Source of the DNA: Candidatus Zhuqueibacterota bacterium
Lineage (GTDB): Bacteria; SM23-31
Reading direction: 5' to 3'
NCBI GenBank assembly: GCA_022562855.1
Contig: JADFON010000007.1
Coordinates: 1 to 15,148, forward strand
DNA length: 15,148 nucleotides
Numbering within the stretch: the stretch's first letter is position 1; each line of letters starts with the position of its first letter. Positions 2,387-14,995 of this stretch are shown piece after piece. Below the pieces are notes generated by a model. It saw nothing but the letters and a program-made list of their open reading frames with translations. It did no database searches and was not told the DNA's origin. A program made the translations under genes and the position numbers.

Positions 2387-2418
2387 AGATATCACGAAAC
2401 AAACGCAGGGAGATTAGA

Positions 2419-2643
2419 ATGAATGTTTCAATAGAATATTGCGTTCAATGAGACTATTGGCCGCAGGCTTCCAGTTTGGCAGCCGAAATTAAACAAAAAT
2501 TAGGTATTACTGCCGAATACATTAAATCGGGTAATGGCAAATTTGAAATTGTATCTAAAGGAAAATTGCTTTATTCAAAAAAAGCGACGGGAAAATTCCC
2601 TGCAATCAACGATATTATTGAAAAACTGAGGTCAATGCAATAA
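2419..2643 (+). CDS. SelW-like (Rdx family) selenoprotein; TGA at 2449-2451 read as selenocysteine
   Basis: This is a small thioredoxin-fold redox protein of the SelT/SelW/SelH (Rdx) family, 74 residues if the TGA is read as selenocysteine (U). The start is VSIEYCVQU, which places the family's CxxU redox motif at residues 8-11 directly after the first beta strand. Further family hallmarks follow in the same frame: SGNGKFEI (37-44) and GKLLYSKKATGKFP (48-61), then a C-terminal helix. Cysteine homologues carry CxxC at the same site. The ATG at 2419 has a GGGAG ribosome site at 2408-2412 with a 6-base spacer. The frame stays open on both sides of the TGA with family-like residues, which argues against a dead gene. 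TGA is a normal stop elsewhere in this window, so it is not globally reassigned. A SECIS-like hairpin lies at 2466-2484. Standard gene callers would miss or truncate this gene. The exact physiological role of bacterial SelW-like proteins is not settled; a thiol or selenol redox function is inferred from the motif. Confidence 0.88.
2449..2451 (+). other. in-frame UGA selenocysteine codon
   Basis: This TGA is codon 11 of the SelW-like frame and sits exactly where the family has selenocysteine or the second cysteine of CxxC. The preceding codons give YCVQ and the following codons give DYWPQA, both typical of the family. Confidence 0.87.
2466..2484 (+). promoter_or_regulatory. candidate bacterial SECIS hairpin inside the SelW-like gene
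   Basis: GGCT (2466-2469) pairs with AGCC (2481-2484). T2470 faces C2480 unpaired. CCA (2471-2473) pairs with TGG (2477-2479), and the loop is GTT (2474-2476). The stem begins 15 bases after the TGA and the loop lies 23-25 bases after it. Bacterial SECIS elements bound by SelB are stem-loops just downstream of the UGA with a G at the start of a small apical loop. E. coli fdhF also has an unpaired U below a 3-bp upper stem. The match in shape and spacing is good, but the structure is judged by eye. Confidence 0.65.
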
Positions 2644-2781: not shown

Positions 2782-4983
2782 ATGAAAAATTACGAGTCGG
2801 CAAGCAAAAAAGTTGATTATTCTCTCAAACTAAAAAGTTATGTAGATAACACATGTCGAAAAATCCTCAATGACAGCCAAGTACTTCTTCAGTCTTTATC
2901 TTCTGAAGATTCCAAAACAAAGAATTTGGCAGCTATCCAGGTGCAGAATCTCTTTGAATTTGAATCTAAAATCAGCAGTCTTTTAGAGCTTCATGAGCTT
3001 GAACAGAATCGATTTTCGAATACCAGAAAATTTGTAGATATTTGTGACCAAATTTCGACAGTAGTAAACAACCTTAAGAAAAAAAATCCCCAGGTTAAAA
3101 CAATTGTTGAGATTCATTATCCCTCACATAAACCTGAGGTACGTTTGAAACCTGACCTGTTTCAAAAGTGGTTTTTCAATTGCCTCGATAAACTATACTC
3201 AAATAAGGCTGTATCCCGTATAAAGATAGAAGTTTTCAACAAGAAGAATGTAACGGTTATCAAGATTAGCCAAAAAGGATTATCCGGCGAAAATGATAAA
3301 AATACAAAAGGGATAGACTGGATTTTCGCCAAACTTTATTTTGAATTGGAAAACGGAGATTTGACCCATGAACAAGACGGTGGGCTGAAATTATTATTTA
3401 CCTCAGCGGGTCCGGATGAAGAGGTTGTATCAAAGGCAGACGACGTCACGGATGTTGAAATTTTAAAGAAACTTAAAGATGGGGACGATCTGCCAACGTT
3501 ATCACCTATTGCAATAAAAATTGTAAAATTAGCTTCAGACGCATCCTCTTCCGCGCAGGACATCGCAAACGTTATATCGCTCGATCCGGCAATGACCGCA
3601 AAATTACTTAAAGTTGTCAATTCTCCCTTTTATGGATTTGCAAAGGAGATCACATCTGTTTCTCAGGCGGTAGCTCTATTAGGGATGAAAGCAGTAAGGA
3701 CTTTGGCTCTTTGCATTTCAATTTTAGACACGTTTCCTTCAGAATCGGATAGAAAATTCGACTACCGCAGCTATTGGGAACGGTCTTTTGCTTCCGCTGT
3801 GACATGCAGAATTACTGCAAAAAAGCTTGCCTTACATATTGAAGAAGAAGCATTCATAACCGGGTTAACGCAAAATATCGGAAGTCTGATTTTTGCCAGG
3901 TTTTATCCAACAAAATATACGAGAATACTGGAAAAGCATAAGAAAAATGCAGATGAGCTGATTGCAGCTGAGCAAAATAGCTGGGGAATTGACCACGCAA
4001 AACTCGGTAGTGAACTATTTTCATTATGGAAAATGCCGGCAATTTTAGGACAGACGATTCTTTATCATCATTCACCATCGAAAGTACCGGAAAACAATCA
4101 CGATTTGAAAAATCTGGCTACCCTGGTATATCTCTCTGAATTATCTTCCAGGGTTCTCTTTGACGGGAAAAAGAGCGTTACCCTCCAACATTTAAAAACT
4201 GAATACAAATCATTATTGAAAATAGATGAAATCGAAGTCGACGAGATAATGCAATTGGTTTCTAATGAAATAGAAATTGTCGCGGGAGAGTTCAATTTTA
4301 CCATAAAAACACCTATCGATTATGCGCAAATTCTCCAAAACGCAAATATAGAATTGGCAAAGATAAATCTTGACTATGAGCAGATTAACCGCGCTCTGGA
4401 GAATGAGAAAAAGCGTGCCGATGAGCTCACCTTGAAATTGCGTAAAGCGAACAAACTTCTTGAAGAAGAAGTCAACACCGACGGGCTGACAAAACTCTAT
4501 AATCATAGGTTCTTTTTTGAATTGGTTACCAAAGAATTTGCAAACGCCCAGAGAAATAATTTCCCGTTAAGCTGCATTTTGATTGACATAGATTTTTTTA
4601 AAAAGGTAAACGATATCTATGGTCATCAAATAGGAGACAAAGTACTTGAAAGAATAGGGAAAATTCTCAAAGAGGCAATACGAACCGGAGATTTTGCCGC
4701 ACGTTACGGTGGAGAAGAATTTGCCATAATTTTACCGAATACGGTAGTCGATAAAGCGAAAATGGTTGCGGAACGAATAAGAAAATCTGCGGAGAACAAA
4801 AATCTAATAGATAATTTTGAAAACAAAAAGATTACCTTGAGCGCAGGCGTTGCAAGTACAGAAAACAACAATGTTGCTAATGCAATCGAATTGGTTGGGC
4901 TGGCGGACAAAGCTGTTTACAAAGCCAAAAAAGAAGGAAGAAATAGAGTTGTTGTTTACTCTCATGATAAATTGAAAATTTGA
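2782..4983 (+). CDS. HDOD-GGDEF signalling protein with degenerate histidine-kinase-like N-terminus (diguanylate cyclase)
   Basis: This is a 733-residue cytosolic protein that probably makes cyclic di-GMP. There are no membrane segments. Residues about 20-100 are helical, and about 105-210 resemble a degraded HATPase_c fold: FFNCLDKLYS (131-140) in the N-box position, VTVIKISQKG (157-166) in the G1 position, and LYFELENGDLTHEQDGG (185-201) like the end of a kinase ATPase domain. No phosphoacceptor H-box or glycine-rich G boxes are intact. An HDOD domain spans about 227-435 (LPTLSPIAIKIVKLA onward). It has TQN where catalytic HD proteins have HD, as is usual for HDOD. A coiled coil (about 520-565) leads into the GGDEF domain (566-728), with active site GGEEF (643-647) and an RxxD inhibitory site (R634-D637). 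An in-frame stop at 2776-2778 makes the ATG at 2782 the first possible ATG start. There is no clear ribosome site. Input signal unknown. Confidence 0.92.
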   Translation: MKNYESASKKVDYSLKLKSYVDNTCRKILNDSQVLLQSLSSEDSKTKNLAAIQVQNLFEFESKISSLLELHELEQNRFSNTRKFVDICDQISTVVNNLKKKNPQVKTIVEIHYPSHKPEVRLKPDLFQKWFFNCLDKLYSNKAVSRIKIEVFNKKNVTVIKISQKGLSGENDKNTKGIDWIFAKLYFELENGDLTHEQDGGLKLLFTSAGPDEEVVSKADDVTDVEILKKLKDGDDLPTLSPIAIKIVKLASDASSSAQDIANVISLDPAMTAKLLKVVNSPFYGFAKEITSVSQAVALLGMKAVRTLALCISILDTFPSESDRKFDYRSYWERSFASAVTCRITAKKLALHIEEEAFITGLTQNIGSLIFARFYPTKYTRILEKHKKNADELIAAEQNSWGIDHAKLGSELFSLWKMPAILGQTILYHHSPSKVPENNHDLKNLATLVYLSELSSRVLFDGKKSVTLQHLKTEYKSLLKIDEIEVDEIMQLVSNEIEIVAGEFNFTIKTPIDYAQILQNANIELAKINLDYEQINRALENEKKRADELTLKLRKANKLLEEEVNTDGLTKLYNHRFFFELVTKEFANAQRNNFPLSCILIDIDFFKKVNDIYGHQIGDKVLERIGKILKEAIRTGDFAARYGGEEFAIILPNTVVDKAKMVAERIRKSAENKNLIDNFENKKITLSAGVASTENNNVANAIELVGLADKAVYKAKKEGRNRVVVYSHDKLKI

Positions 4984-14553: not shown

Positions 14554-14626
14554 GCTGGCATAGCTCAGTTGGTAGAGCAGCTGATTTGTAATCAGCAGGT
14601 CGGGGGTTCAAATCCCTCTGCCAGCT
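14554..14626 (+). tRNA. tRNA-Thr (anticodon TGT)
   Basis: The acceptor stem GCTGGCA (14554-14560) pairs with TGCCAGC (14619-14625), with discriminator T14626. The anticodon stem GCTGA/TCAGC encloses loop TTTGTAA, giving anticodon TGT. The D-loop (AGCTCAGTTGGTAGAGC) and the T-arm with GGTTCAAATCC are canonical. No CCA is encoded. Confidence 0.98.
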
Positions 14627-14699
14627 CGAAATGCCGGCAATAATAAATTGAAAAAATTAATTGAGCTTTTGCGGGGCTGACAGAGAGAATGTGTGATAT

Positions 14700-14781
14700 G
14701 GAGAGGTACCCAAGCGGTCAACGGGAACAGACTGTAAATCTGTCGGCGAAGCCTTCGGAGGTTCGAATCCTCCCCTCTCCA
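14700..14781 (+). tRNA. tRNA-Tyr (anticodon GTA)
   Basis: The acceptor stem GGAGAGG (14700-14706) pairs with CCTCTCC (14774-14780), with discriminator A14781. The anticodon stem ACAGA/TCTGT encloses CTGTAAA, giving anticodon GTA at 14734-14736. A long variable arm marks it as class II, as expected for bacterial tRNA-Tyr. No CCA is encoded. Confidence 0.98.
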
Positions 14782-14797
14782 CGGAAAGTGTTTTCCG
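14782..14797 (+). other. spacer hairpin between tRNA-Tyr and tRNA-Gly
   Basis: CGGAAA (14782-14787) and TTTCCG (14792-14797) form a perfect 6-bp stem with a GTGT loop. It begins at the base after the tRNA-Tyr discriminator and fills most of the 21-base spacer. It could guide processing of the tRNA transcript; this is inference. Confidence 0.4.
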
Positions 14798-14802
14798 AAT
14801 GT

Positions 14803-14879
14803 GCGGGAATAGCTCAATTGGCTAGAGCATCAGCCTTCCAAGCTGAGGGTTGCGGGTTCGAGTCCCGTTTCCCGCTCCA
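14803..14879 (+). tRNA. tRNA-Gly (anticodon TCC)
   Basis: The acceptor stem GCGGGAA (14803-14809) pairs with TTCCCGC (14869-14875), with discriminator T14876. The anticodon stem TCAGC/GCTGA encloses CTTCCAA, giving anticodon TCC. CCA follows at 14877-14879, unlike the other three tRNAs here. Confidence 0.97.
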
Positions 14880-14922
14880 GATTATCTTGGCGTAGGATTA
14901 CTGATGATTTTCGGGGAATTGT

Positions 14923-14995
14923 GCCTACGTAGCTCAGTCGGTAGAGCACATCCTTGGTAAGGATGAGGTCACCGGTTCAATCCCGGTCGTAGGCT
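14923..14995 (+). tRNA. tRNA-Thr (anticodon GGT)
   Basis: The acceptor stem GCCTACG (14923-14929) pairs with CGTAGGC (14988-14994), with discriminator T14995. The anticodon stem CATCC/GGATG encloses TTGGTAA, giving anticodon GGT. Placement directly before tuf is a widely conserved arrangement. No CCA is encoded. Confidence 0.98.

Follow-up and report, generated by a model that had tools for sequence, protein, structure and literature searches.

A functional SelW-like selenoprotein gene, in which selenocysteine (Sec) is inserted at the UGA codon 2449-2451 to give a predicted thiol/selenol redox protein, almost certainly lies in the stretch of DNA analyzed here (15,148 nucleotides from a Candidatus Zhuqueibacterota bacterium, referred to as the window). 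The gene, its family and its fold, a TGA conserved among relatives, a hairpin under constraint and a complete Sec machinery were all computed directly. The host assembly, of which the window is contig 334, comprises 2.51 Mb in 491 contigs and is 79.6% complete. The features discussed below are the following:

2408-2412, forward strand: Shine-Dalgarno-like GGGAG, 6 nt upstream of ATG 2419, recognized from the sequence
2419-2643, forward strand: selW-like gene of the Rdx family, coding for 74 residues including a predicted Sec at position 11; stop codon TAA at 2641-2643
2449-2451, forward strand: UGA codon with selenocysteine (the U in CVQU) as its predicted reading; aligned with TGA in 22 further homologues and with Cys in 3 Cys forms
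2466-2484, forward strand: putative bacterial SECIS hairpin, in which the loop AGUUU (2473-2477) is closed by the stem GGCUUCC/GGCAGCC, containing one U-C mismatch

The gene is located in a gap (2191-2781) between the genes for an ABC-transporter ATPase (1195-2190) and an HDOD-GGDEF protein (2782-4983), and the ORF listing gave no convincing gene there under the standard code. The longest ORF inside the gap is a 64-aa antisense one and the selW frame itself yields just a 55-aa fragment from TTG 2476, so that the gap had rightly been described as empty in the first-pass annotation. With TGA read as Sec, the translation of 2419-2643 is MNVSIEYCVQUDYWPQASSLAAEIKQKLGITAEYIKSGNGKFEIVSKGKLLYSKKATGKFPAINDIIEKLRSMQ*, reproducing the frame of 74 codons with one in-frame TGA, at codon 11, that had been proposed. 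The nearest in-frame stop 5' of ATG 2419 is the TAG at 2386. A ribosome site had also been claimed, and the GGGAG ahead of the ATG can be graded as a fair one. The residue following Sec (GAC, 2452-2454) is Asp; in most of the TGA homologues it is Asn (AAC).

TGA is the normal stop codon of the HDOD-GGDEF, ruvC, ispD and cysS genes on the same stretch, and the region could accordingly be taken for a pseudogene, or for two fragments separated by a true stop. However, a true stop would leave a 10-residue product with no evident use, while the family blocks SGNGKFEI and SKKATGKFP, already pointed out in the first-pass annotation, are kept after the TGA with no further damage to the frame, and homologues at 34-67% identity have the same layout. 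We consider this explanation very improbable.

Membership of the Rdx/SelW family, as predicted, is agreed upon by profile, sequence and structure searches. The 74-residue protein matched Pfam Rdx (PF10262) with 58.1 bits (E 1.1e-15, cut-off 22.6), the match spanning both sides of the TGA, and TIGR02174 (SelT/SelW/SelH) with 49.1 bits against a cut-off of 34.2. The narrower subgroup model NF041051 (SelTWH_Campy equivalog) was not reached (76.4 bits, cut-off 88); the protein is related to that subgroup but falls outside its model. A phmmer search against the PDB recovered solved Rdx proteins including 2ljk, 2fa8 and 2p0g, the best match being MIEN1 (2ljk). An AlphaFold model built from 26 sequences (pLDDT 95.8) has the thioredoxin-like order strand-helix-three strands-helix (E3-8, H14-28, E33-37, E42-46, E49-53, H63-73). 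All 22 Foldseek matches of the model at E <= 0.001 were SelW-related/Rdx proteins, some of them displayed by target name alone and assigned to Rdx via the phmmer sequence match; the best was 2fa8 with a TM of 0.89. The CxxU motif expected at residues 8-11 is present as CVQU, and in the model Cys8-Val-Gln-Sec11 is placed at the end of strand 1, before helix 1, which is the active-site position of the family.

The reading of the TGA as Sec is strongly supported by comparison with relatives. Among 116 genomes searched for Rdx, the host's own included, the family was found in 23, and in 19 of these (again counting the host) the match contains one TGA. The other four have Rdx with no internal stop, one of them as a partial match beginning after the motif. 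Four additional TGA loci came from a KSB1 bacterium, two planctomycetes and a deltaproteobacterium. In the studied gene and 22 homologues the TGA falls at the same column and the reading is intact on both sides, as would be expected of Sec retained in independent relatives, and the three Cys forms (L023-L025) have Cys at the U11 column. Other genomes of the same class carry the gene in four of five cases, all four with TGA; it was not found in the remaining class member, G003 (83% complete). SelA was above its cut-off in 18 of the 19 genomes with the TGA form and in 36 of the 97 others (Fisher p 4e-6, the genomes being related and the trials thus not independent). The TGA-form genome in which SelA was not found, G036 (86% complete), has a TGA-form Rdx gene with a hairpin (L038, G036:C169), and the lack of SelA there probably reflects missing sequence. 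Two genomes of the same family, G001 and G002, each have two full-length SelA matches on separate contigs, compared with one in the host genome; these could be either paralogues or the result of strain mixture in the assemblies.

The SECIS-like hairpin reported in the first-pass annotation fits the published bSECIS model, which asks for an apical loop of 3-9 nt with G in its first two positions, an upper stem of 4-16 bp, a spacing of 16-37 nt and an MFE of at most -7.5 (PMC13188914). Its stem consists of six pairs and one mismatch, and the loop, which starts 21 nt after the UGA, has G as its second base and U as its third. The best fold of the region has -10.7 kcal/mol, the folded minimum pairing slightly differently around the same loop. 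On its own the hairpin is not exceptional relative to dinucleotide shuffles of the whole sequence (z -0.68, 43 of 200 as good), and its support comes from the comparison with relatives.

Synonymous resampling was applied to 23 genes, with the protein fixed and the codons drawn from local usage in 1000 resamples. The summed hairpin energy was -241.6 compared with -152.0 +/- 11.6 in the resampled genes (0 of 1000 as low), and the pairs formed, out of seven per gene, numbered 119 compared with 89.9 +/- 4.2, although these figures overstate independence because the 23 genes are related. The position control, run on the same genes and therefore sharing their relatedness, gave z -6.7 at the hairpin and -0.6 to -2.3 at seven later positions. 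The loop codon is AGT in all 17 genes with Ser there (background AGT, 9.5% of Ser codons), and GGT in all four genes with the Gly variant. Covariation amounted to 12 cells with double changes, in which both sides are altered, compared with 4.8 after shuffling, and the given pairing register outscored all slides. The exact stem varies, since L026, L035, L038 and L042 form a shifted or shorter one.

The Sec pathway implied by such a gene was found in the host genome. Profile searches detected SelA (530 bits, cut-off 268) and SelB (377 bits, cut-off 242), encoded by neighboring genes on contig 464, and SelD (391 bits, cut-off 125) on contig 359, and tRNA-Sec is located on contig 435 (69.3 bits, cut-off 47; ARAGORN anticodon TCA). 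A complete lack of Sec genes, which had been named as grounds for rejecting the prediction, is thus not the case here. A second SelD-like match, on contig 66, has 34 bits, below the cut-off, and probably represents a different member of the same superfamily.

These observations bear on two further explanations. A TGA is one base away from both TGC and TGT, and in an assembly as fragmented as this one (491 contigs) a Cys-type SelW gene could have acquired it by a sequencing or assembly error. The same TGA in 22 homologues from other genomes refutes such an error for the family, and the machinery in the genome as well as the synonymous constraint on the hairpin 3' of the TGA argue against it in the studied gene, where its probability is minimal. 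An internal TGA by itself would also be compatible with genome-wide reassignment of the codon to Trp or another residue, for example under code 4. Yet other genes on the same stretch end in TGA, the non-Sec homologues have Cys at the TGA column, and SelA, SelB, SelD and tRNA-Sec are all present; reassignment, the least probable of the alternatives, is already refuted by these observations.

For the selenoprotein gene, the following mechanism is proposed. Ribosomes would start at ATG 2419, and SelB bound to the hairpin 2466-2484 would bring to UGA 2449-2451 the Sec-tRNA-Sec that SelA produces using selenophosphate supplied by SelD, after which translation would continue to the TAA. We infer Sec incorporation from the comparative evidence above, and a redox role from the family and the CxxU motif. 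The product would be a small protein of thioredoxin-like fold, whose Cys8-x-x-Sec11 makes and breaks a selenenylsulfide bond. Its predicted activity is thiol/selenol redox chemistry, with peroxide defense or redox repair as the probable role.

Gene order around selW is shared with relatives: G001 has the order TolC-like - ABC ATPase - selW - HDOD-GGDEF, G002 has selW - HDOD-GGDEF - yebC - ruvC, and selW sits directly beside HDOD-GGDEF in three of the family's genera. In this bacterial family the selW locus has a stable place on the chromosome. It could be speculated that SelW is functionally tied to the adjoining HDOD-GGDEF signaling gene in the host lineage, the two forming a redox-sensing or stress-signaling unit rather than SelW being a free-standing antioxidant, but we regard this as unlikely. 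Further along the window, 3' of cysS, there is a cluster of four tRNA genes at 14554-14995 (Thr-TGT, Tyr-GTA, Gly-TCC and Thr-GGT).

Several other genes in the host genome contain an in-frame TGA. In the SelD gene (L047:2362-3450, contig 359, minus strand) it lies in the N-terminal motif ECAGU, and SelD is probably itself a selenoprotein. Three AhpC/TSA-family (peroxiredoxin/thioredoxin-like) genes, L051, L055 and L056 on contigs 234, 199 and 350, have one in-frame TGA each, in the active-site-like motifs WASWUVC, GACTUPPY and NNTPGU; the NNTPGU gene encodes a TxxU peroxiredoxin and is cut by the contig end. These three are probable further selenoproteins, and since the TGA of these redoxin-family genes falls in an active-site-like motif, the host genome is probably selenoprotein-rich. 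Formate dehydrogenase alpha was rejected as a candidate, its two molybdopterin Fe4S4-domain matches having no internal TGA within that short matched domain.

SelW-like proteins are among the most common bacterial selenoproteins (PMC1088965, PMC2398784). They made up the largest family of the Sargasso Sea selenoproteome, with 48 genes (PMC1088965), and again of the Global Ocean Sampling data, with 427 genes and CxxU (PMC2398784). The gene described here resembles them in family, in CxxU and in having a bSECIS directly after the UGA, with no substantial difference (PMC1088965, PMC2398784). Its sequence is new, sharing about 50-52% identity with its best relatives in named public genomes, the nearest of which belongs to a KSB1 bacterium (50% protein identity); selA, selB and selD have been reported in KSB1 genomes (PMC9012183). 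Cys-type bacterial Rdx proteins such as Atu0228 (2fa8) and VcR75 (2p0g) have the same fold (TM 0.84-0.92), with Cys in place of Sec (CTQC in Atu0228), whereas animal selenoprotein W (2npb) and MIEN1/C17orf37 (2ljk) share the superfamily and fold and are more distant. In eukaryotes the SECIS is in the 3' UTR (PMC1088965), whereas the hairpin of the studied gene is inside the coding region.

The finding is well supported as a new sequence of an already described, widespread bacterial selenoprotein family; it is correct but ordinary, given how common SelW-like selenoproteins are in bacteria, and leaves existing knowledge of SelW unchanged. A stop-interrupted gene was nevertheless called correctly from the raw sequence. 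For this lineage, a complete selenocysteine system is now documented. Two of its selenoprotein genes are well supported and their number is probably five; such genes would be cut short or overlooked by standard gene callers.
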